57,279 nucleotides of DNA from positions 1 through 57,279 of the IMG/VR virus record IMGVR_UViG_3300009154_000068. The stretch is one strand, 5' to 3'. The position numbers were made by a program, and so were the translations under genes. Shown here in pieces: positions 4,318 through 32,564 of the stretch. Numbering within the stretch: the first letter of the stretch is position 1; each line of letters opens with the position of its first letter. The DNA comes from a virus. The notes under the pieces were generated by a model, which did not search any database, was not told the origin of the DNA, and was given only the letters and a program-made list of their open reading frames with translations.

Positions 4318-5733
4318 ATGAAAAAACCTATTGAACAGATCGCCGAAGAACTGTGTGATAAATTGACTAGATTTGAGGACATTACCTTGGGTGATGAATC
4401 AGCAGCTGACACAGATGACGAAGAAAAGGCCAGATTTTTTAATTTTACATATCAGGATACCGAATCCGAAGATAAACCAATCATAACAGTTCATCTAAGT
4501 GATTCCGGAGATGTTGAAAAAAGAGCATTGAAAGTTCATTATATCACTGATATACTTGACTTGATGAATCTTGACCAGAAAAAACGATGGGTAGATTTTT
4601 TAAAAGAATTGAGATATTTCGCCAAAGCTAATTGGTTGAATTTTGATGTTAGAAATTTAACTAAATCCAATTTAAGTTTGCGCGACATTAAAAAATTGAC
4701 TAAAAAAGATTCAGTTGCTGTTGATCAAGTAAAGGTTACAGAAAGCAAACTGTTTGGTACTAGTAAACTAAGTTATGAAAACGTGGGCCCAGTAAAATTA
4801 TTGGTACGTCATAGCCAAAATATAAATCCTGAAATTCAAGGATCTAGAACTAGAAATATCGAAAATATATTTGTTGAAACTGAGATCGGTGAAAGATTTT
4901 TGATGCCATTTACTAAATTAAGCCCAGCTAGGGCAATGGCTAGGCATATTGCTGAAGGTGGTAGAATTGGTGACGAAATTGCTAATTTCATTGAAGAATC
5001 TGCAAAAGAAATGTCATCTATGGGGGTTTTTGTGCGTAGTATGCGTCGTAGAACGTTTGAGGACACAGAAACAATTGCCATGGTTGAAGCTGCTATAGAA
5101 CGATATAATGAAGTTAAATCAAATTTGAATCGTATTAGTGGACAAAAGGGTTATGCCGATTTTAAAGAACACTATACACCAAATGATCAAGATGAATATG
5201 ATTTTGATTTAGATCAATTGAAAGAGCGATTCGTTAAAAAATTATTTGACGATAGATTGGGCGAAGCATTGCCTCATGTTTATAGGGCGTACAAAGCTAA
5301 ACAAAAATCTATGGAAAATAGTTATGTGGCTGAATTTGATCAATGGGCGGATGATGTAGTAGAAGGCACGTGGGCAGTGCCTGAAACTGATTCAGATTTA
5401 GATGCTCTTAAAGATCTAATGTCTAAGCCACTGTCTGCCGGAGTTGATGGCGCCGATGCTATACCTTCCTTATATGATCTTATTGGAGACGATGACTTGT
5501 TTGATCGTATAAGTCAATTATCTTCAGAACAAGGTCAAGATGCCGATGTTAGACCTTTGGTAATTGATTGGTTAAGTAATAACGGTTACGAGGATCTGGC
5601 TGCCGAGTTTCAAATGACATTTGATCAACCACAATCATCACCATCACCTGCGTCTGAAATCAACATAGATCAGCCACCAATGGAAGAAAGTATCAGCAGT
5701 TTGCGCAAACTCGCTGGCATTACCAAAAATTAA
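4318..5733 (+). CDS. Conserved late phage protein of unknown function
   Basis: This 471-residue acidic protein follows the terminase and has its own late promoter. The N-terminus (about 1-150) contains KKRWVDFLKELRYFAK and a Thr/Lys-rich segment that I recall from aquatic T4-like phages without an assigned role. The middle is helical and charged. The C-terminus ends in LRKLAGITKN after a Ser/Pro/Gln-rich linker, so the shared LAGI motif here is a C-terminal tag. A virion or head-assembly role is likely from expression and position but is not shown. Confidence 0.65.
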   Translation: MKKPIEQIAEELCDKLTRFEDITLGDESAADTDDEEKARFFNFTYQDTESEDKPIITVHLSDSGDVEKRALKVHYITDILDLMNLDQKKRWVDFLKELRYFAKANWLNFDVRNLTKSNLSLRDIKKLTKKDSVAVDQVKVTESKLFGTSKLSYENVGPVKLLVRHSQNINPEIQGSRTRNIENIFVETEIGERFLMPFTKLSPARAMARHIAEGGRIGDEIANFIEESAKEMSSMGVFVRSMRRRTFEDTETIAMVEAAIERYNEVKSNLNRISGQKGYADFKEHYTPNDQDEYDFDLDQLKERFVKKLFDDRLGEALPHVYRAYKAKQKSMENSYVAEFDQWADDVVEGTWAVPETDSDLDALKDLMSKPLSAGVDGADAIPSLYDLIGDDDLFDRISQLSSEQGQDADVRPLVIDWLSNNGYEDLAAEFQMTFDQPQSSPSPASEINIDQPPMEESISSLRKLAGITKN

Positions 5734-5893: not shown

Positions 5894-6904
5894 ATGGCAA
5901 CGACTTTAGCTGAAATTCGCGCACGTTTGCAGGCGCAAGAAACCCGTGGTAGCAACAATTCCCAAATGGGCGGTGATAATGCTATCTATCCACATTGGAA
6001 CATTGCAGAAGGTACTAGTGCAAAACTACGCTTCCTTCCTGACGCTGATCCCAAAAATACATTTTTCTGGATTGAACGAGCAATGATTAAATTGCCTTTC
6101 GCTGGTATTAAAGGCCAAGGCGATAGCAAACCTGTTCAAGTACAAGTGCCCTGTGTTGAAATGTGGGGAGAAGCTTGTCCAATTTTGGCAGAAGTTCGAG
6201 GCTGGTTTAAGGATCCAAATCTTGAAGATATGGGTCGTAAATATTGGAAGAAAAAATCTTATTTGTTCCAAGGTTTTGTTCGTGAAAATCCTTTGAGCGA
6301 TGACAAAACTCCTGAAAATCCAATTCGTCGTTTTATTATTAGCCCACAGATCTTTAACATTGTTAAAGCTGCTCTGATGGATCCTGAAATGGAAGAATTG
6401 CCAACTGATTACGAGCGTGGTTTGGACTTTACTGCAACTAAAACTAGCAAAGGTGGTTATAGCGACTACAACACTAGCAAATGGGCACGTAAAGAATCCG
6501 CTCTTACTACCCAAGAGTTGGAAGCTATTGAAAAATTTGGACTTTATAACTTGGCAGACTTCTTACCTAAGAAGCCCAGCGATGTTGAACTTAAAGTAAT
6601 CAAAGAAATGTTTGAAGCCAGTGTTGATGGTGAAGCTTATGATTCCGATCGTTGGGCTAACTACTACAAACCAGCTGGTGTTCAAAGTGATCGTCCCGCA
6701 ACAACCGGTTCGTCGGCAGCTTCACGTTCTGATGATATGGTTGATCCTGAGCCAGCCCCCACAAAAGTTGCTCGCCCAGTAGCACCAGCGATGGTTGATG
6801 AAGATCCAGTAGAAGCCACAGCACCAGTGGAGGCAGTAAAGCCTTCCAGTCAACGTGCTGAGGATATTTTGAAAATGATCCGTAGTCGTCAAAAGACCGC
6901 TTAA
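5894..6904 (+). CDS. 32: Single-stranded DNA-binding protein gp32
   Basis: gp32 coats single-stranded DNA in replication and recombination and loads UvsX through UvsY. This 336-residue copy has the gp32 pattern: a basic N-terminal cooperativity region (LAEIRARLQ), then an OB-fold core with PHWNIAEGTSAKLRFLPD (33-50) and aromatic-rich strands. Only C87 and C95 lie in the region of the T4 zinc knuckle, so the T4 zinc ligand set is not complete. The tail after about 260 is Pro/Ala/Glu-rich but ends basic (KMIRSRQKTA), unlike the acidic end of T4 gp32. Start chosen at ATG 5894, with AAGGA 10-14 bases upstream. It heads the gp32-uvsX-uvsY run. Confidence 0.92.
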   Translation: MATTLAEIRARLQAQETRGSNNSQMGGDNAIYPHWNIAEGTSAKLRFLPDADPKNTFFWIERAMIKLPFAGIKGQGDSKPVQVQVPCVEMWGEACPILAEVRGWFKDPNLEDMGRKYWKKKSYLFQGFVRENPLSDDKTPENPIRRFIISPQIFNIVKAALMDPEMEELPTDYERGLDFTATKTSKGGYSDYNTSKWARKESALTTQELEAIEKFGLYNLADFLPKKPSDVELKVIKEMFEASVDGEAYDSDRWANYYKPAGVQSDRPATTGSSAASRSDDMVDPEPAPTKVARPVAPAMVDEDPVEATAPVEAVKPSSQRAEDILKMIRSRQKTA

Positions 6905-6914
6905 TCATTGATCA

Positions 6915-6939
6915 GGGAAGGTGGGTGTTCCATCTTCCC
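6915..6939 (+). terminator. Hairpin between gp32 and uvsX
   Basis: A ten-pair stem (GGGAAGGTGG with CCATCTTCCC, one G-U pair) and a five-base loop, followed by an A/T run. It could attenuate gp32 messages or mark a processing site. The uvsX ribosome site lies just after it. Confidence 0.6.
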
Positions 6940-6962
6940 ATTTATTATTTCTAGGAGAATAT

Positions 6963-8030
6963 ATGGCGCGGCCGTTTGACTTATCAAAATTTCGAAAAAC
7001 AATTACTAAAAGCATTGAAGGTGTTAGCATTGGTTTTAATGATCCAACAGATTGGGTCAGCACTGGTAATTTTGCATTGAATTATTTAATATCTGGAGAC
7101 TTTAATCGTGGTATTCCCATGGGCAAAGTTACTGTACTTGCGGGCGAGAGTGGCGCAGGTAAAAGCTTTATTGCATCAGGAAACTTGGTGCGTAATGCTC
7201 AACAACAAGGCATTTATGTTATCTTAATTGATACAGAAAATGCATTGGATGAAGCTTGGTTACATGCTTTGGAAGTAGACACCAGTGAAGAAAAATTACT
7301 CAAACTAAACATGGCTATGATCGATGATGTGGCTAAAATGATTAGTGAGTTTGTTAAGGAATATAGAGTATTACCAGAAATTGAACGTCCAAAAGTTTTG
7401 TTTGTTTTGGATAGTTTGGGTATGCTTTTGACACCAACTGATGTTAATCAATTTGAAGCTGGTGATTTAAAAGGTGATATGGGACGAAAGCCCAAGGCAC
7501 TAACTGCATTGGTTCGCAATTGTGTTAATATGTTTGGTGATTTGAATATTGGGTTAGTGGCTACTAATCATACATATGCAAGTCAAGATATGTTTGATCC
7601 AGATGACAAAATTTCGGGTGGTCAAGGCTTCATTTACGCTAGTTCAATAGTTATTGCAATGCGAAAACTTAAACTTAAAGAAGATGAAGATGGCAATAAG
7701 ATCAGCGAAGTTAAGGGTATTCGTAGTGCTTGTAAAATTATGAAAACTCGATATGCAAAGCCATTCGAAAGCGTTCAAATCAAAATCCCATATGAAACAG
7801 GTATGAATCCTCATAGTGGATTGGTTGATTTGTTTGAAGGCAAGGGTTTGCTGAAAAAAGAAGGTAATAGTCTTGTTTATACATTATCTGATGGTGAGAT
7901 TATTAAGCAATTCCGTAAAGCCTGGGAACGTAATGAAAACGAAAGTTTGACTAAAGTAATGAAAGATATTACCGATAATCCTAGGTCGGCCATAAGTAAT
8001 CAAGAGCAAGTAGTTGAGGAGAATGAATAA
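6963..8030 (+). CDS. uvsX: UvsX, RecA-like recombinase
   Basis: UvsX forms filaments on single-stranded DNA and drives strand exchange and recombination-dependent replication. The 355-residue product has Walker A GESGAGKS (61-68), Walker B VLFVLDS (about 145-151), and the DNA-binding loop region around TYASQDMFDP and GGQGFIYASS. Start chosen at ATG 6963, preceded by CTAGGAG (6951-6957); a longer frame from 6921 would run through the hairpin. Length is close to T4 UvsX (about 390). It overlaps the next gene by one base (TAATG). Confidence 0.95.
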   Translation: MARPFDLSKFRKTITKSIEGVSIGFNDPTDWVSTGNFALNYLISGDFNRGIPMGKVTVLAGESGAGKSFIASGNLVRNAQQQGIYVILIDTENALDEAWLHALEVDTSEEKLLKLNMAMIDDVAKMISEFVKEYRVLPEIERPKVLFVLDSLGMLLTPTDVNQFEAGDLKGDMGRKPKALTALVRNCVNMFGDLNIGLVATNHTYASQDMFDPDDKISGGQGFIYASSIVIAMRKLKLKEDEDGNKISEVKGIRSACKIMKTRYAKPFESVQIKIPYETGMNPHSGLVDLFEGKGLLKKEGNSLVYTLSDGEIIKQFRKAWERNENESLTKVMKDITDNPRSAISNQEQVVEENE

Positions 8031-22986: not shown

Positions 22987-24828
22987 ATGCCCTACAATTT
23001 AGTATTGTCTAATGGCGACGCGTTGGTTACTTTGGCCGACGGTGTGGCTGATAACAGTTACACCAGTTTAACCTTATTTGGTAAGAATTTTGCCGGCTAC
23101 GGGCAATTTTTAAATGAAAACTTTGTTCGTCTATTAGAACATTTTTGCAGTTCTGTGCCACCATTTAACCCTGTAGTTGGTCAACTTTGGTATGATTCAC
23201 TCAATCATAATATGAAGGTATTCAATACCAATAGTGTTTGGACATCATTATCTGGAATAACTGCATCCAATGTGCCACCAGCAGGGCCCAATAATGGTGA
23301 TGGGTGGTGGGATGTAGTAAATGAACAACTTTTTGTTTGGGGCAGTTCACAATGGATACTATTAGGTCCAAAATGGAATTCGATTCAAGGAAAATCCGAA
23401 GCAGAGGCATATACGGCCATTGATGTTGACGGTGGTGGTCATACATTATTATTATTCTATATTAATAATACTGTTGTTGGTATATGGAATAATGACGGTG
23501 AATTTGTAGTACCCCCAGAGGAGGCCATAGGATCTTTTGTAACTATTCCTCATGGTCTTAGTTTTGATACTTTAAATGTTGAATCTATTTTTGTTTCTGG
23601 TGATCAGGATATTCAAGGATCTCTTGTGGTGCATGGTAATATTACTGGTGACCTTTTTGGAAATACCACCGGGATACATTATGGTAATATTATAGGAGAA
23701 ACTGGTACATTTACTTCATTAACTTCGGGTAGAATGGTATTTGCTGGAAATAATGGGCTGTTGGTAGATGATGGAGATTTGAGATACAACAATGTTAGTA
23801 ATACGGTTCTTGGTCGTTCTATTCAGTTATCTGTTGGATTAACTACTCCATCGGCCAATGTAACAACTTTGACAAAAGATAGGATTACATTTTGTGGTGA
23901 AGATGGCGCATTAATTGATAGTGCTAATTTAACATTTATATCAAGCACCGGCACATTGAATGTGTCGTCTAGAGTAAACACCATAACAGTAAAATCATCA
24001 AGTTTGACAAAAGATAGAATCACATTTGCTGGTGATAATGGTTTATTGGTTGACAGTCAAGGATTAACATTTCAGTCCGGAGTCCTTAGATCGACATCTG
24101 GTTTTGCGGGTAGTTTGACTGGTGATGTTACTGGCAATACTACTGGTACACATAATGGACCATCTAATGGTACACATACCGGACCATCTAATGGTACACA
24201 TACCGGACCAGTAACTGGGGATGTTACTGGTAATCTTACTGGTAATGTTACTGGCAATACCACTGGGCGACATACTGGCTATGTTTGCATACCAGAATCG
24301 CCGATGACGAATAACGCCAGCACAGGACTTTATTTTCAAAATCATACAAAAACTGGGTTATTATGGACGGATGCACTTTATATACGGACTGAAAATAAAG
24401 CCCTAGTGATATTTGAAGATACAGGTGTTGGCTTTGGTCAAAACGTCTATATGACAGAGTCTCTGGGTGTTAATGGAGTCATTAACTGCAAAGGGGACAT
24501 TTTTGCATTTGTGACATCAGACCGGAATCTCAAAACAAATATTCAGCCAATTGAAAATGCTTTATCAAAAGTGAAGAAAATCACAGGGGTTTGCTATGAT
24601 TGGACTGATGATGCCCTCAAAAAGTTGGGCGGTGAAACTGGAAATTTTATTCGAAGAAGAGATACTGGTGTTATTGCTCAAGAAGTTGAGTCAGTATTAC
24701 CAGAAGTTGTTACAACTCGATTAGACGGATCAAAAGCAGTCAAGTATGACAAAATGGTAGGGTTACTTATTGAGGCAATAAAGGAATTGTCAGAAGAAGT
24801 CGAGCAACTTAAAAATAATAAGCAATAA
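22987..24828 (+). CDS. Tail fibre protein with S74 intramolecular chaperone
   Basis: 613 residues. The N-terminal part (1-180) has two copies of a fibre motif (SNGDALVTLADG, VVGQLWYDS). The middle is a shaft with GDVTGN-type repeats (about 375-430). The C-terminal 100 residues form a peptidase S74 domain: SDRNLKTNIQPI carries the Ser/Lys self-cleavage dyad, then GVIAQEVE and a coiled-coil end. The chaperone trimerises the fibre and then cuts itself off. The N-terminus is paralogous to the next gene. Start ATG 22987 follows CGAGGAA. Confidence 0.85.
   Translation: MPYNLVLSNGDALVTLADGVADNSYTSLTLFGKNFAGYGQFLNENFVRLLEHFCSSVPPFNPVVGQLWYDSLNHNMKVFNTNSVWTSLSGITASNVPPAGPNNGDGWWDVVNEQLFVWGSSQWILLGPKWNSIQGKSEAEAYTAIDVDGGGHTLLLFYINNTVVGIWNNDGEFVVPPEEAIGSFVTIPHGLSFDTLNVESIFVSGDQDIQGSLVVHGNITGDLFGNTTGIHYGNIIGETGTFTSLTSGRMVFAGNNGLLVDDGDLRYNNVSNTVLGRSIQLSVGLTTPSANVTTLTKDRITFCGEDGALIDSANLTFISSTGTLNVSSRVNTITVKSSSLTKDRITFAGDNGLLVDSQGLTFQSGVLRSTSGFAGSLTGDVTGNTTGTHNGPSNGTHTGPSNGTHTGPVTGDVTGNLTGNVTGNTTGRHTGYVCIPESPMTNNASTGLYFQNHTKTGLLWTDALYIRTENKALVIFEDTGVGFGQNVYMTESLGVNGVINCKGDIFAFVTSDRNLKTNIQPIENALSKVKKITGVCYDWTDDALKKLGGETGNFIRRRDTGVIAQEVESVLPEVVTTRLDGSKAVKYDKMVGLLIEAIKELSEEVEQLKNNKQ
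24157..24204 (+). repeat. Exact tandem 24-base repeat in fibre shaft
   Basis: Two identical 24-base units (24157-24180, 24181-24204) encode GPSNGTHT twice, inside a wider set of Thr/Gly/Asn shaft repeats (24109-24270). Such repeats let fibre length change by slippage or recombination. Confidence 0.85.
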
Positions 24829-25722: not shown

Positions 25723-26814
25723 GTGGCAAAAATCAAATTTAGAAGAGATGCGGCGGCAACTTGGACTGACGCCAACCCTGTATTGGCTCAAGGTGAGCCT
25801 GGTTTTGAATATAATACAGGCAAATTAAAAATTGGTGATGGGGTAAATCCTTGGAATTCGTTAAACTATGTTTCTGGCGGTGCCAGCGGCGGGTCATACA
25901 TATTACCAATGGCTACGCCTAATGCACTTGGTGGTGTTAGGGTTGATGGTACAACAATTTTAATTAATAGCAGTGGAATTATTCGAACTGCTGCTGGGTC
26001 ATACATATTACCAACAGCTTCCCCTAGTACATTAGGCGGGGTTAGAGTTGATGGTACAACAATTTTAATTAATAGCAATGGGGTTATTAGTGCTGTGGGC
26101 GGTGGCGCCGGTGGTATTGGGGTCAGTGGAAACACCACCAATTCAGTTACATTTAATAATAGTGGAAATGGGGCATTTTCTGGAACAACATTCAATGGTA
26201 GTTCTGCAATTGTAGTTTCCTATAATAGTGTTGGTGCTCCTAGCGTCACGGGTGCTGGATCCTCGGGAATCTGGCCTATTTCAGTAACTGGCACTGCTAC
26301 CAATCTACAAGGTAACCCAAATATTGTAGTTAGTAGCATAGCAGTTGGATCCACAACCAATTCAATTACCAGTGAAGGAAGCAATATCTATTTTGGCAAT
26401 AAAACTGTTGTTGTCGTTCCGTCTGTTGGTTTTTCTCCGGTAGTGGATAATGCATATGTACTTGGAGGACCAAGTCAGAGATGGGCTGGTATATATGCTG
26501 CATCAGGCTCAATTCAAACTTCTGACTCGCGACTTAAAGAACAGGGTCGATCATTAAATGATGCTGAAAAAGCTGTTGCTATTAAAATTAAAAGTTTAAT
26601 CAAAGCGTTTAAATTTAAAGATTCAGTGTCAAAAAAAGGAAACCAAGCCCGAATACATATCGGGGTATATGCTCAAGAAATAAAACAAGCATTTGAATCA
26701 GAGGGACTAGTCGCCCAAGATTATGGAATGTTTTGCTATGATGAGTATGAAAATGGTGATACTTATGGTATTAGGTATGAGGAATTGCTGGCCTTTGTAA
26801 TATCAGCAATCTAG
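25723..26814 (+). CDS. Tail fibre with Mtd-type N-terminus and S74-like chaperone
   Basis: 363 residues from a GTG at 25723, with GGAGA eight bases upstream. The first 50 residues (KFRRDAAATW, GEPGFEYNTGKLKIGDG) are paralogous to the gene at 22480. Then come two 35-residue repeats, a Gly/Ser/Thr shaft, and a C-terminal S74-type domain (TSDSRLKEQG, IGVYAQEIKQAFE, YEELLAFVISAI). The usual SD..LK pattern is kept as SDSRLK. Probably self-cleaving fibre. Confidence 0.8.
   Translation: MAKIKFRRDAAATWTDANPVLAQGEPGFEYNTGKLKIGDGVNPWNSLNYVSGGASGGSYILPMATPNALGGVRVDGTTILINSSGIIRTAAGSYILPTASPSTLGGVRVDGTTILINSNGVISAVGGGAGGIGVSGNTTNSVTFNNSGNGAFSGTTFNGSSAIVVSYNSVGAPSVTGAGSSGIWPISVTGTATNLQGNPNIVVSSIAVGSTTNSITSEGSNIYFGNKTVVVVPSVGFSPVVDNAYVLGGPSQRWAGIYAASGSIQTSDSRLKEQGRSLNDAEKAVAIKIKSLIKAFKFKDSVSKKGNQARIHIGVYAQEIKQAFESEGLVAQDYGMFCYDEYENGDTYGIRYEELLAFVISAI
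25891..26100 (+). repeat. Two 105-base tandem repeats in fibre gene
   Basis: Units at 25891-25995 and 25996-26100 encode two GSYILP...LGGVRVDGTTILINS modules of 35 residues. The DNA is well conserved between units, so the duplication is recent or kept homogeneous. Confidence 0.85.
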
Positions 26815-26856: not shown

Positions 26857-27582
26857 TTATTGTCCTGTTGATACTGAAGCATCGTATTCATCAATAAAAG
26901 ATTGAAACCAACCTGTTACAAATCTATATTTTTCAGGATCATTGAAATATGAAAGGGCCACGGGAACTGATGCTTCCACTCTCTTTTTCCCAGTCGACGG
27001 TGTGCCGCCAGGAAGTATAGCTAAAGGTATGTTTGTTGATATATATGCCGTCAGGCCAATGGCACCTTCTTCCAAATCAGCTAATACAGCATCATCAACG
27101 ATGTAGTGGGCAGAAAAACTAATAATTCTTGGAATATCGTTCTTTATAGAATCAGTCAATAATACTAAGTTTGGGTCCCAATCACTGACTGGAATCGGGT
27201 CTAATACATATCCCCCATGTAATACCGAAATATCCCAATCATACATAAATATCACTGTATCTTGAGGCCGATCATTGAAAAAGAAGGATGAGAGTATTAT
27301 TGAATATCCCAAAATAGTTTGTTCTGGTATTATGGTTGTTTTGAATTTTGACCAGAACTCTTTTGGCCACAAAATTTGTATAGTCTTATCTATGTTATTA
27401 AATCTCAAATCAAATTCAAAGAGAGTGGGGGTCTCCGAATATGTTCTTATGTTTGATGCTATTTGTAAAAGTTGTACATCGGTTGGATCAGAAACTGTTA
27501 CCTTGATCACTTCGGGAACTTGATTAAATACATCAAGTAATGCGTCTAATTCGGCACTTGTTTCTTTGTTTTTGATAATCAT
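26857..27582 (-). CDS. Unknown protein coupled to radical SAM enzyme
   Basis: A 241-residue protein, last of a minus-strand three-gene cassette. Its ATG overlaps the radical SAM stop (TAATG), with AGGAAG just upstream, so the two are translated together. It has EVIKVTVSDPTDVQLLQIA, IQILWPKEFWSKFKTTI, an acidic DWDPNLVLL stretch and a C-terminal WFQSFIDEYDASVS. No Cys cluster and no recognised domain. A partner or second modification protein for the radical SAM enzyme is inferred from coupling. Confidence 0.65.
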   Translation of the reverse strand: MIIKNKETSAELDALLDVFNQVPEVIKVTVSDPTDVQLLQIASNIRTYSETPTLFEFDLRFNNIDKTIQILWPKEFWSKFKTTIIPEQTILGYSIILSSFFFNDRPQDTVIFMYDWDISVLHGGYVLDPIPVSDWDPNLVLLTDSIKNDIPRIISFSAHYIVDDAVLADLEEGAIGLTAYISTNIPLAILPGGTPSTGKKRVEASVPVALSYFNDPEKYRFVTGWFQSFIDEYDASVSTGQ

Positions 27583-29060
27583 TATACTTCCTGTATTGAT
27601 ATTGATTTGCTATAAACTTCCACGTCGTTTATAACCATTTCTTTTTTGTTAATTACTTTTATTGGGATAATTTTTTTCTTTTGTCTTTCCTGGTGATCAA
27701 AAATGGTTCCCCAAATATCTTGCCTATGTAATGGTAGAGTGTCTGACTTGATCAGTGTTGGAATATATCCATTGGTGAGTTTAGCAAAAGCCAATGCAAA
27801 TAATGCTATATTATTTGAATATGCATTTTCACATGACACATCCCAATAATTACCATCTAGGAACATGCATGATCCCTTGCAAAGATGTAGTACTGGGCAT
27901 TCGCTACATTTAATCTTACTGTCTCTAGACTTCCAATGTGTGACTGACTTAAATTCCACATTACCATAATCACTTAAATTCCCACCCAAATGACTTTCGC
28001 CATTTTTACTGGTTTCTAAAGCACTTACATTTTGGCAAGTGATTACATTTCCTTTTAAATCAACAGCAATAGATCCTGGATTATCCATACCACACTTCTG
28101 TCCCAAAAATTTTGATTCTAACTTTTGTGATATTACTGAGGTTGTGAATTGATTTATCTTATCATTGATACCGGTAAACCCAATATATCCATCTGACATA
28201 TATATATCCACAAAAGATTTTTGCCTAAATTTAAAATGATCCTCTAAACTAGTTAAAGAATTATTTATACCATCATCGTCATATGCATCAACCATTTCGC
28301 CCTCACCTAAGATAACTGATTTGTCTCCAGTGAGTTCAAAAAACCATTCATAAACAGCTTTTCTGCTAATATTTTTACCATTCAACATAGCATTAAAACT
28401 AATTTTATTTTTCGGCTTCATTATTTTGTAAAAATCTAAAATTATTTTTTTTCTTTTTGGATCTAGAAATGGATCTGGTCCTCTGACAGATTGATTTGGG
28501 CCATCATGACTAATAGCAACGGAGAAATCAAATTCTATCAACCAAGAACAAATTTCCTCAGTTAATAAAGATCCATTAGTGATTATCGAAAACATTGGTT
28601 TAGTTTCCCATTGTTTAAATTTTTCTGATAATCTTTCAGCCAATGGTTTCAATGTTTTCCAATATACCAATGGCTCTCCACCCCAAAACTCAATTTTTAG
28701 TCCTTTTTGTTCAGAAAATTCTAAGACATCTAATTTGGACATGAAATCATCAATATCTTTTTTACTAGTTTCTGTTGGTCTTTCAACAAATTTTTGACTA
28801 CAATATTCACAAGAATAATTACAGCCCAAACCTAGCTGTATCTTTAATAAATCAATTGATTTTGATTTTTTTAGCGGAAAATCTTTGGAAAATGGTATGG
28901 TCTCCTCTAAATTAACTGGGATATCATCAAAATAGCTTTTTAACTGATCAGAAGGCCCTAAAATTTTATCAAATTCATCACTAATGATATTAAGCTCATT
29001 GTCGTAGTAGAATGTTTTTTTGTCAGAAAAATTTTTTTCTGCCGTGATTTGAAATTTCAT
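27582..29060 (-). CDS. Radical SAM/SPASM peptide maturase-like enzyme
   Basis: 492 residues. The radical SAM core has the CX3CX2C cluster motif C80-C84-C87 (GLGCNYSCEYC), then WGGEP (126-130) and SIITNGS (158-164), as in SAM-cleaving enzymes. The C-terminus carries a complete seven-Cys SPASM domain: C323, C342 preceded by GNVIT, then C385, C388, C394, C398 and C410 in the CX2CX5CX3C order. SPASM enzymes hold two further iron-sulphur clusters and usually modify peptides or proteins (sactipeptides, anSME, PqqE). The enzyme lies between a Cys-rich small protein and an unknown protein, on the strand opposite the tail genes. Confidence 0.88.
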   Translation of the reverse strand: MKFQITAEKNFSDKKTFYYDNELNIISDEFDKILGPSDQLKSYFDDIPVNLEETIPFSKDFPLKKSKSIDLLKIQLGLGCNYSCEYCSQKFVERPTETSKKDIDDFMSKLDVLEFSEQKGLKIEFWGGEPLVYWKTLKPLAERLSEKFKQWETKPMFSIITNGSLLTEEICSWLIEFDFSVAISHDGPNQSVRGPDPFLDPKRKKIILDFYKIMKPKNKISFNAMLNGKNISRKAVYEWFFELTGDKSVILGEGEMVDAYDDDGINNSLTSLEDHFKFRQKSFVDIYMSDGYIGFTGINDKINQFTTSVISQKLESKFLGQKCGMDNPGSIAVDLKGNVITCQNVSALETSKNGESHLGGNLSDYGNVEFKSVTHWKSRDSKIKCSECPVLHLCKGSCMFLDGNYWDVSCENAYSNNIALFALAFAKLTNGYIPTLIKSDTLPLHRQDIWGTIFDHQERQKKKIIPIKVINKKEMVINDVEVYSKSISIQEV

Positions 29061-29087
29061 AATGTTTTTTGATAGTGTTTAGTTTAA

Positions 29088-29600
29088 TTAAGCTAAGGTT
29101 GCTCCAACATTCAAAATTTTCGAAGACGTCCCCGCCTCCATGTTAATTGCTGAGTCCAAGGCGTTGGCTGTTGTTACTGGATCTAATAGTCCTCCAACAC
29201 CAGTCGAATAGGCCCAATATACGGCGGCAACGACAACTATGGCGACAAAAAAATCTACTAGCACTTCCCACCATTCTTTCTTGCAGGCGCAAGCTGAACA
29301 TTGATATTGTGGCGGAGATGGACTATTACAAGCTCGTTGTAACCATGGTCTGGCGTCACAATTTGCGCAATTCGTAGTACCAGTCGCTCCACCGCAATTA
29401 CCATTATTGCAATTACCACGCATATAATTTTGATAGTAAGTCAATCCATAAAATATGGACATTGGTGCCAGCGGTTTCCCCCATATTTCGGGAAGTATTT
29501 GGTCACGTAAAAAAGCTAAATTGGTTGCTGTGCCTGGACCTATTTCGGCAGCAATTTCACTGATGGATAAAGCACCACTTCCTCTAGTTTTAATAGTCAT
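29088..29600 (-). CDS. Cys/Asn-rich membrane protein, candidate substrate of the radical SAM enzyme
   Basis: 170 residues. The start SGALSISEIAAEIG is a phrase common at the N-terminus of phage tail proteins of aquatic phages. A central segment (about 60-107) has eight Cys among Asn, Gly and Ala: RGNCNNGNCGG, NCANC, RACN, QCSACACKK. Then comes a hydrophobic helix (VLVDFFVAIVVVAAVYWAY) and a soluble tail. Being first in the late cassette, 27 bases ahead of the radical SAM gene, it is the obvious substrate candidate. Confidence 0.75.
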   Translation of the reverse strand: MTIKTRGSGALSISEIAAEIGPGTATNLAFLRDQILPEIWGKPLAPMSIFYGLTYYQNYMRGNCNNGNCGGATGTTNCANCDARPWLQRACNSPSPPQYQCSACACKKEWWEVLVDFFVAIVVVAAVYWAYSTGVGGLLDPVTTANALDSAINMEAGTSSKILNVGATLA

Positions 29601-29627
29601 AATATCTAAGTAATAAAAATATATAAT

Positions 29628-29635
29628 TATTTATA
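29628..29635 (-). promoter_or_regulatory. Late promoter TATAAATA, minus strand
   Basis: Exact core on the minus strand, 27 bases before ATG 29600. It drives the radical SAM cassette and lies back to back with the plus-strand late promoter at 29664. Confidence 0.7.
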
Positions 29636-29663
29636 CTTTGTTGATAAACGATATTATTTATTG

Positions 29664-29671
29664 TATAAATA
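29664..29671 (+). promoter_or_regulatory. Late promoter TATAAATA
   Basis: Exact core, 34 bases before ATG 29706. Confidence 0.65.
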
Positions 29672-29705
29672 TAAGTATATTCACGAAACTAAAAAAATAG
29701 TCATC

Positions 29706-32564
29706 ATGAGAAAATTAAAATGGATAACACCCAATAGTTTAGGAATCATCGAGGAACACGCTTACTTTGAAATTCAATTAAAAGCTAAGTCGACGGAGTC
29801 TTCTGAGGTTTTCTATTCAATGATTTCTGGAAGTATTCCAACAGGTGTAAAATTATCAGATTCGGGTTTGTTATATGGGGTTGCTAATACACTTAAATCT
29901 AACACAAAAGAATTTGATTCAATAATTGAATTTACAGTTAGAGCCTGGGATAGTTCTGGTGTCATTGCCGATAAGACATTTAATTTTATAGTTTCAACAT
30001 TGACAAATATAGGTATTGTTCCAGAAGAAGAATTTTTAGGAACTTTTATAGATGGTGAAAAGTTTTTCCATCAGATCAATTTAGACACTTTTGGGCAAAT
30101 TAGGCCAATAACATGGCGCTTAGCCAATGGAAAAATCCCAGAGGGAATAACTATCAGTTCTGATGGAAAAATTCATGGGTTTCTTGGTAATAAAATAACA
30201 GACCAAACATTAAACCAATATGGTTGGGACAAATCTGCATGGGACATGTATTTCTTAGATGCCACTAGACCACAAAATGCCAGTGTTTATCAATTCACTA
30301 TGGAGGCAGATGACGGGATCTATCAAAATAGAAAATCTTATAAAATAGAAGTACTACCCAGGAACTATACTGTGCGGGCTGATAGAACATATCCTTTATC
30401 CTATGATTTTTCTAAATTAGATGCTTCACAAAATGGTTACTTGCCCTATATCATTGAAGAATCCAAAACTTTGCCGCAAGTGAGAATGGAGTTGTCAAGG
30501 CATGATACCAACTTTGCATTTAAATTTAATGCAAGGGATCTGGATAATGATGAAATTTATTATGAAATAACTAGTCCAGACAATGGTGGATTTGATCAGG
30601 ATGGAGAAGTTGGTTTTGGTCAAGGCGGTCTTGATTCTAGTGACTACCCAATGCCAGTTGGCATAGGCCTGAACAATCAATCAGGTTGGTATACTGGGCA
30701 CTTTTTTAAGCAAAATAAAACAAATTCCAATCATACTTTTCAAATATATGCTAGAAAAAAGTTGGGTAGAGAGTACTCTGGACCAAAAACAAATTTCAAT
30801 ATGACGGTTCTTGGGGACTATAACGATGAAATTCATTGGATTACTGATAGTGATTTGGGAACTATAGATAATGGAAGCTTTAGTAGTTTAAGAGTGCAGG
30901 CAGTGACGAACACTAATTCTAAATTATATTATAGATTAAGTCCATTGAAATATAGTAGAACTCCACAAGGAGTAGTGTTGCTATCTACCGGGGAACTTTC
31001 GGGCAGGGTCAGTTTTAGGCATTTCAGCCTGGATGGTGGAAGTCTAACTTTGGATCAAGACAAAACGCTCTTTGATAGACAATATTCATTCACAGTCATT
31101 GCTCATGATCTGTATTTTAAATATTATAGTGAAAAAACATTCAACCTAAGAGTAAATGTGTCTTACAAGGAGCCTTATGATTCCCTATATCTAAGAGCAA
31201 TGCCAAATAAAGTGCAGAGAAAATTTTTAAAATCAATAATTGAAAGTGAATATTATTTTCCCAGTAATCTGATATATCGATCAGCTGTTCCTTGGTGGGG
31301 AAAAAAACACTATTTGGAATTTTTATTTTTAACAGGGTTACCCCCTGGGGATTTATCAATATATTTGCCGGCTCTTGAAAAAAATCATTATTCCAAGACA
31401 TTTACTTTTGGTGAAGTAAAAACAGCAGCCGCGATTGATGAAAACTATAATATAATTTATGAGGTCGTGTACTTGGATGTCATTGATAGTCAACTCGGTG
31501 TTGATTCAAAAACTGGGTTGAAAAAATATCCACAACAGGATATCAATTTGGGAAAACTCAGTAATTTTTATTCTGTTAATGGTGTTGATCAAACCAAGTT
31601 ATGTCCCAATGGTTTGGGGAATATGAGTAAACAAGTTATTGATCATATTCCAATCAATGAAAAATCCCCATTACCAAAATGGATGACGTCAATGCAACCA
31701 AACCCCAATTCTATTTCACTCTTTGATCCGCCTTTAGGATATATTCCGGCTGTTGTTTTGGCTTATACTGAGCCTGGCGGCAGCAAAACAATAGCATACC
31801 GACTCAAATCCAATAATGTGTTATTTAATAATATTGAATTTACTACGGATAGGTATCTATTGGACAATGTTCTGAGCAAATACTATGACATTACCAAAAA
31901 ACAATTTATTCAAGGAATCCCGTGTTATCTTGACCAAAAAGTCAGTGTTGCTGAATGTTATAGAATAAAAGGCAACGTTGATTGGGCTATTGATGCAACC
32001 TATTCACAAATATCGGGTAAATTGGTTTCTGATTTAATTGCGGGAAATATTTTTGATGGCCAAAATAGCGTTGTTGATGGTGATACTGTAATTTTAATTC
32101 AAAGTAGCGGTTATATTTCCATCAATGACTATTCAACTGGTTGGGTTGATTATGCAAATAATAGAATCATACCAGGCTATTTGAACCAATTGATAACCGG
32201 AGCAGATAATGAAAGATCGGCGGTTTATCAAATAACTATTGATAGTAACGGATATTTATTTTTGAACGTATTAGAATTGTCTGCCCCGGGCGATATTGTT
32301 ACTATAAAAAATGGAAATATATATGGGGGGAAAAATCTATGTTTGGATCATTATGCCATACATGGCTATGATATAACTTGGAGAGAATTTAAAAACACAT
32401 TGATTATAGATCCTCTTACAAACTTGCAAATCATAAAAAATAGAAAACCAACAACTTTTGATTCCGACTCAACTAGATTTGTTAGTAATAAAGATAGATT
32501 TTATCTAGATCCTAATGTCGAGGATAAATATATTAAATTCCCAAAAACTGGAGTATTCATTTAA
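29706..32564 (+). CDS. Large tail adhesin-like protein with Ig-type domains
   Basis: 952 residues. ATG 29706 (MRKLKWITPNSLG) is chosen; an upstream TTG at 29661 overlaps the promoter. The first 230 residues contain two putative Ig/cadherin-like repeats (IPTGVKLSDSGLLYG and IPEGITISSDGKIHG), the He_PIG pattern common in phage and bacterial adhesins, and a third occurs near 440 (TPQGVVLLSTGELSG). The C-terminal half is unassigned. Likely a virion surface or tail protein. It abuts the next gene. Confidence 0.75.
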   Translation: MRKLKWITPNSLGIIEEHAYFEIQLKAKSTESSEVFYSMISGSIPTGVKLSDSGLLYGVANTLKSNTKEFDSIIEFTVRAWDSSGVIADKTFNFIVSTLTNIGIVPEEEFLGTFIDGEKFFHQINLDTFGQIRPITWRLANGKIPEGITISSDGKIHGFLGNKITDQTLNQYGWDKSAWDMYFLDATRPQNASVYQFTMEADDGIYQNRKSYKIEVLPRNYTVRADRTYPLSYDFSKLDASQNGYLPYIIEESKTLPQVRMELSRHDTNFAFKFNARDLDNDEIYYEITSPDNGGFDQDGEVGFGQGGLDSSDYPMPVGIGLNNQSGWYTGHFFKQNKTNSNHTFQIYARKKLGREYSGPKTNFNMTVLGDYNDEIHWITDSDLGTIDNGSFSSLRVQAVTNTNSKLYYRLSPLKYSRTPQGVVLLSTGELSGRVSFRHFSLDGGSLTLDQDKTLFDRQYSFTVIAHDLYFKYYSEKTFNLRVNVSYKEPYDSLYLRAMPNKVQRKFLKSIIESEYYFPSNLIYRSAVPWWGKKHYLEFLFLTGLPPGDLSIYLPALEKNHYSKTFTFGEVKTAAAIDENYNIIYEVVYLDVIDSQLGVDSKTGLKKYPQQDINLGKLSNFYSVNGVDQTKLCPNGLGNMSKQVIDHIPINEKSPLPKWMTSMQPNPNSISLFDPPLGYIPAVVLAYTEPGGSKTIAYRLKSNNVLFNNIEFTTDRYLLDNVLSKYYDITKKQFIQGIPCYLDQKVSVAECYRIKGNVDWAIDATYSQISGKLVSDLIAGNIFDGQNSVVDGDTVILIQSSGYISINDYSTGWVDYANNRIIPGYLNQLITGADNERSAVYQITIDSNGYLFLNVLELSAPGDIVTIKNGNIYGGKNLCLDHYAIHGYDITWREFKNTLIIDPLTNLQIIKNRKPTTFDSDSTRFVSNKDRFYLDPNVEDKYIKFPKTGVFI

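Follow-up and report, generated by a model that had tools for sequence, protein, structure and literature searches.

What does a radical SAM/SPASM enzyme do inside a phage tail gene block, immediately beside a small protein rich in Cys and Asn? The window, by which we mean the whole 57,279-nucleotide stretch of viral DNA analysed here (IMG/VR record IMGVR_UViG_3300009154_000068), carries three tightly packed genes running head to tail on the minus strand from 29600 to 26857, in the order P0001, P0002 and P0003. P0001 (29088–29600, minus strand) codes for a 170-aa Cys/Asn-rich tail-type protein, the substrate candidate; P0002 (27582–29060, minus strand) for a 492-aa radical SAM/SPASM enzyme, recognised from its motifs, a profile match, an alignment and a structure model; and P0003 (26857–27582, minus strand) for a 241-aa protein of unknown function. 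The first two genes are separated by 27 bp, and the second and third overlap by one base (TAATG), the start of P0003 overlapping the enzyme stop codon. The cassette runs opposite to the tail genes around it, which are on the plus strand, and is flanked by a fibre with an S74 end (25723–26814, plus strand) and by a 967-aa open reading frame with an Ig-like domain (29661–32564, plus strand). A further fibre gene in the window (22987–24828) contains an in-frame GTHTGPSNGTHTGPSNG, short repeats of the TGDVTGN type and an S74-type tail-fibre end.

The cassette meets the criterion for a T4-type late gene, namely a TATAAATA core shortly upstream of the start: the core of a T4-late-type promoter lies at 29628–29635 on the minus strand, 28 bp upstream of the P0001 ATG, which is the first of the cassette. 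A second, divergent TATAAATA at 29664–29671 serves a plus strand gene whose ATG follows 35 bp later, at 29706. There are 12 copies in the window compared to a mean of 7.3 in shuffled sequences (4 of 100 shuffles reached as many), and eight of the 12 sit 6–35 bp upstream of an ATG-started open reading frame on the same strand, as expected of T4-type late promoters. A promoter of this kind is reasonable here since the window also carries a terminase, a single-strand binding protein and a helicase of known phage families, together with tail fibres ending in S74.

P0002 belongs to the radical SAM superfamily (Pfam PF04055, 38.6 bits against a cut-off of 29.5) and has both the CX3CX2C cluster motif (C80, C84 and C87; 28800–28823, minus strand) and a seven-Cys SPASM domain (C323, C342, C385, C388, C394, C398 and C410; 27831–28094, minus strand). 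The spacing of the latter, C323-X13-G337-X4-C342 ... C385-X2-C388-X5-C394-X3-C398-X11-C410, satisfies the SPASM/twitch pattern CX9-15GX4C ... CX2CX5CX3C ... C. All of the cluster Cys and all seven SPASM Cys are invariant in a 53-sequence alignment, and among 193 long homologues every one has the cluster motif and 188 the full SPASM pattern. Residues 41–450 match the profile of PHROG 1802 (E 3.4e-59), a family described only as a radical SAM domain-containing protein, with no assigned function or substrate. The named families nearest to P0002 are PapB and then QhpD, both of them thioether formers, and both are missed by a wide margin: the enzyme scores 89.7 bits against the PapB ranthipeptide maturase model (NF047865; curated cut-off 340), 79.4 bits against QhpD (TIGR03906; 453) and 52.6 bits against anaerobic sulfatase maturase (TIGR03942; 349), and we rejected all three assignments. 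Six diverse relatives are likewise covered by no curated NCBIfam model. The structure model is confident (pLDDT 92), and its nearest solved folds are the thioether-forming CteB (5why), anSME (4k39, the second-best match), TigE and ChlB. From these motifs, scores and nearest folds we take P0002 to be a peptide- or protein-modifying SPASM enzyme of a subfamily of its own; its chemistry is an inference.

P0001 is homologous over residues 1–108 to Cys-rich proteins that adjoin the enzyme in dozens of other phages. Its N-terminal region (residues 1–60; 29421–29600, minus strand), identified by alignment, has a tail-type sequence (MTxxxSGxIxxxxIxxEIG...), and this start is shared with other tail-region proteins such as that at 6557–7645 of locus L003. 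An Asn/Cys-rich segment follows (residues 64–106; 29283–29411, minus strand; GNCNNGNC...NCANCD..WLQ..C...C..CAC) and is the likely modified region; in 36 homologues the columns C64, N66, N68, L87, Q88, C101, C104 and C106 are invariant. With eight Cys and few NCNC repeats, P0001 is a reduced, Cys-poor version of the family core, GNCNNGNC..NCNCGNIQC.NC..NCANCD.Q.WLQ.NCNCACTYNC..SYNCNCAC. Its Cys segment is internal and leads into a predicted membrane helix (residues 110–132; 29205–29273, minus strand), in place of lying at the C-terminus as in most relatives. The structure model is weak (pLDDT 61), and no argument rests on it. On an enzyme tree built by a quick method the window enzyme clusters among the short C-terminal and S74 types and outside the membrane-helix group, so the helix of P0001 looks like an independent change. 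We regard P0001 as a divergent, Cys-poor member of the family with a predicted membrane helix.

The preliminary description of this locus had reported three minus-strand genes behind one TATAAATA core, a 170-residue protein with a tail-type start, eight Cys and a membrane helix, an enzyme with CX3CX2C and a full seven-Cys SPASM domain, and a coupled third protein of unknown nature. Each of these held, the helix being supported only by a hydrophobic stretch and the low-confidence model.

To ask how general the arrangement is, we searched for the enzyme family, which has at least 509 viral relatives in IMG/VR and 74 in bacterial genomes. In 78 of 82 viral enzyme loci there is an Asn-Cys-rich open reading frame on the same strand, at a median gap of 24 bp when upstream or 28 bp when downstream of the enzyme; one locus has such a frame on the opposite strand. 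Two of the four loci without a same-strand partner are cut at contig ends (L013 and L064) and a third has a frameshifted copy (L029), leaving L011, in which the enzyme is present and no partner is visible, as the only real exception among the 82. The pattern recurs in at least 76 viral loci besides the window, and the pairing in the window is therefore far above chance; phages and prophages taken together, the pairing recurs in hundreds. That P0001 is merely a chance Cys-rich frame is excluded by the strand bias (78 to one) and by its homology to dozens of partners. Among the 74 bacterial loci a partner is present in 51, in most cases a protein resembling a fibre and encoded some 1.5 kb upstream, and closer inspection of the other 23 revealed short Asn-Cys ends in several (L101, L114, L135 and L154); those that remain are mostly contig ends or distant homologues, with no visible partner at L091 (45% identity) or at the distant L136, L140 and L152. 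The pairing also occurs in two phage isolates, Achromobacter phages JWF and 2-1, with a gp36-like fibre that has a Hint end located two genes before the enzyme, and the enzyme of 2-1 also belongs to PHROG 1802. These partners were found solely by reading the gene neighbourhood; tblastn searches of isolated phages with P0001 and P0003 gave no match.

The reverse association was examined by scanning for a DNA pattern encoding N-C-N-C-x-C-x-C-x-C, blind to the enzyme. The 80 resulting loci were divided by eye, on open reading frame context and before any enzyme look-up, into 56 real and 24 spurious; these counts are a sample and not a full census. The enzyme family is present in 51 of the 56 records with a credible coding tail (45 of 50 plus six of six), whereas the 24 records whose frame is spurious all lack it (Fisher p = 7e-16). 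All 44 measurable tail–enzyme pairs are on one strand, with the enzyme downstream in 42. Four of the five misses have no more than 1.2 kb of sequence past the motif before running into the contig end, and the sole clear exception is L201, a 77-kb record with a related motif, a protein that looks different, and no enzyme. The weakest positives (L166, L173 and L179) carry distant SPASM enzymes and not close relatives.

Two explanations that would uncouple the genes are made very unlikely by these data. The Asn-Cys tails could bind a metal or cluster in the manner of metallothionein C-x-C motifs, with the enzyme working on another nearby process, for instance the assembly of a cofactor; metal-binding tails typically show C-x-C spacing, and the number and parity of the Cys vary freely, but such tails would be expected often to lack the enzyme, which the reverse scan does not bear out. 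Alternatively, both genes might simply hitch-hike in the tail module while the enzyme acts on the host or its metabolism. A metabolic reading of phage radical SAM genes has a precedent (Campylobacter phage CP220, PMC2853527), and the region also contains 2OG-Fe(II) oxygenases and Trp halogenases, which are oxidative enzymes too, but hitch-hiking does not account for a two-way co-occurrence, on one strand, across lytic phages and prophages with unrelated fibres. The criterion for a thioether RiPP that a Cys-rich substrate is encoded beside its maturase is met, and we consider it very likely that the enzyme modifies the adjacent Cys/Asn segment, with the caveat that this is inferred from association and that no chemistry is shown by sequence.

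The position of the repeats suggests where the modified segment would reside. Most relatives carry the (Asn-Cys)n segment at the very C-terminal end of a fibre or of a small tail-type protein, and the substrates range from about 75 to 700 aa. When sorted by their ends, 128 terminate in the Cys tail; in 10 a Hint domain starts at the tail (...NCNCDCNCNCS-CFPAGT), in two an S74 domain comes immediately after it (...NCNCNCACFW-SDDTLK), and 32 run on into a hydrophobic domain that contains SKI[IV]C together with a membrane helix. Hint and S74 domains cleave themselves, and with chain termination as the third arrangement all three would leave the Asn-Cys segment C-terminal, at the fibre tip; this exposed tip is inferred from sequence alone, and no cleavage has been observed. 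Hint labels require five separate changes on the enzyme tree (again by the quick method), and their presence in several branches suggests, by inference, a repeated use of self-cleavage to expose the tail. Hint domains beginning right at the end of the Asn-Cys tail can be seen at 2640–4088 of L007 (JWF gp28) and in L090, L143–L145, L148, L187, L229 and L248. This resembles the C-terminal self-processing of tail fibres by S74 chaperone or Hint domains, some substrates ending in such domains directly after the Cys tail, and differs from plain processing in that the domains here appear to expose a tail that, we infer, another enzyme modifies.

The composition of the repeats bears on the nature of the modification. 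Asn precedes 67–70% of the Cys in the cores, and in 71 distinct tails the spacing between Cys is exactly two in 330 of 383 steps. Even and odd numbers of Cys are represented similarly (37 to 34), and we rejected disulfide pairing as the purpose of the Cys for want of an excess of even numbers; repeats at a regular i, i+2 spacing that show no parity weigh against simple disulfide pairs. Two precedents come from SPASM enzymes: in NxxcA a thioether is made between Cys23 and Asn20, and QhpD forms Cys-Asp and Cys-Glu thioethers on a protein substrate (PMC8326336). Because of these, and since NCNC contains the N-x-x-C spacing of the NxxcA peptide, a thioether is our leading guess for the linkage; we favour it by a modest margin and do not present it as a result. 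An alternative is that the segment undergoes some other reaction, including Cys oxidation (to formylglycine, the reaction by which sulfatases are matured anaerobically), desaturation, epimerisation or C–C cross-linking, for example at WLQ. This remains possible: anSME is the second-best structural match, the JWF copy is annotated as a sulfatase-maturating enzyme, and the short tail-type substrates keep WLQ almost without change. Against it, the cores shown have no visible CxPxR sulfatase motif, the tail-fibre substrates lack WLQ, the NCBIfam anSME score is far below its cut-off, and long regular Asn-Cys repeats are a better fit for linkage of Cys to neighbouring residues.

Taken in this way, the system is like the maturation of ranthipeptides and SCIFFs (CteB, PapB and NxxcA) in that a SPASM radical SAM enzyme adjoins a Cys-rich substrate, with CteB the nearest fold and PapB the nearest named profile of P0002, and with a Cys-Asn linkage known in NxxcA. 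It is unlike them in being phage-encoded, in having a tail-fibre or tail-type substrate in place of a short peptide, in its (Asn-Cys)n repeats, and in its low scores against their models. QhpD, the maturase of quinohemoprotein amine dehydrogenase and the second-best NCBIfam match, offers by analogy a SPASM enzyme acting on a protein subunit, although substrate, host context and subfamily all differ.

Our main reading, which we consider likely (a probability of about 0.75), is that this is a late-expressed, phage-encoded maturase cassette that installs Cys-Asn linkages, most likely thioethers, in fibre tips; the chemistry and the role are inferred. During virion assembly an enzyme of the P0002 type would draw on radicals derived from SAM to remove hydrogens from the Asn-Cys segment, Cys sulfurs would be joined to carbons of neighbouring residues, most likely Asn or Asp, and the product would be a rigid, chemically stable, cross-linked tip that may help the virion to bind, or to withstand, the host surface. 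In the window the modified segment would lie between the tail-type N-terminus and the membrane helix, and may act at the membrane. Weighing against this reading are the Cys-poor P0001 with its internal segment, the partnerless L011, the enzyme-free L201, and the bacterial homologues that have no partner. For the family at large it is likely that the product is part of the virion; for the window phage we lean only slightly towards this, and a role for the modified tip in host contact is an inference that we hold as tentative, a little short of an even bet.

A different outcome would be the release of a modified peptide, as a toxin, signal or membrane exclusion factor, that is not part of the virion. 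The window, and relatives whose C-terminus carries a membrane helix, are the cases that this would suit best, since P0001 and 32 relatives have a further hydrophobic C-terminal region. We think it unlikely given the tail-type N-terminus, the late promoter and the location among tail genes; in addition, most relatives are fibre C-termini, and the cassettes have no visible exporter or peptidase, neither being found among the Pfam families of cassette neighbours. As to the cassette as virion component, the preliminary description had proposed that the Cys/Asn region is the enzyme's substrate, which the two-way association strongly supports, and had named widespread enzyme-free homologues of the Cys-rich protein as a refutation, which the reverse scan looked for and did not find. 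Its placement of the product on the virion is well supported for relatives, in which the repeats end fibre-like proteins, and weaker for the window, in which a membrane helix follows; its suggestions of thioether or other chemistry, and of display, release or a membrane role, are still inference. Its view that a phage-borne modification system of this kind is new held for the literature searched, and such systems are not unique to the window phage.

We found no description of the pairing, or of such a modification class, in the open-access literature searched, the scope of which excluded most subscription journals and all preprints. What is new is the enzyme family, the sort of substrate and the setting, the class of SPASM maturases being already known; to PHROG 1802, to which P0002 belongs, the present analysis adds the pairing with Asn-Cys fibre tails. 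If the reading is true, radical chemistry serves phages in building part of the apparatus by which they contact the host, which would constitute a new layer in host-range biology, give a function to a functionally unassigned phage protein family, explain odd Cys-rich fibre ends known only as hypothetical proteins, and provide a large natural set of enzyme–substrate pairs from which cross-linked protein tips could be made. With the pairing present in two phage isolates, the reading is open to direct test. A bolder version, which could as easily prove wrong as right, is that dedicated radical SAM maturases, encoded by tailed phages and prophages whose hosts are mainly aquatic Proteobacteria, cross-link fibre tips of the (Asn-Cys)n type exposed by chain termination or by Hint or S74 self-cleavage, and that these tips form a general, unrecognised class of covalently modified receptor-contact structure.

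Several neighbouring genes add to the complexity of these loci. P0003 matches, at 98% profile probability, the gene that follows immediately after the enzyme in several phages belonging to its subclade, and we can only suggest that it might help in assembly or bind the substrate. In prophage cassettes (L107 2866–3708 and L198 4549–5433) the Cys-tailed fibre is immediately followed by a conserved-looking protein of about 280–290 aa, possibly a chaperone. At 5437–7834 of L198, and in records G014, G031, G037 and G054, two tandem radical SAM genes follow the fibre gene, the first of those in L198 coding for a shorter SPASM-like enzyme of about 340 aa. Among 83 proteins neighbouring the cassette in viral loci, 20 are 2OG-Fe(II) oxygenases and seven are tryptophan halogenases (for example, L003 3702–5240 and 595–1167, and L029 5134–9632), and these could modify the same or other tail proteins. 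Some short partners have long (VDCACAC)n repeats at the C-terminus, with up to 21 closely spaced Cys (L083 2623–3117 and L063 5490–5969). Finally, a second, related modification system may exist at a different phage tail locus (L166 170–5708, and L179): it encodes two small CQTCQGCQ-repeat proteins with NCNCDCNCNC or NCNC at their ends, and the genes flanking them are two distant SPASM radical SAM genes and a Hint-like fragment.
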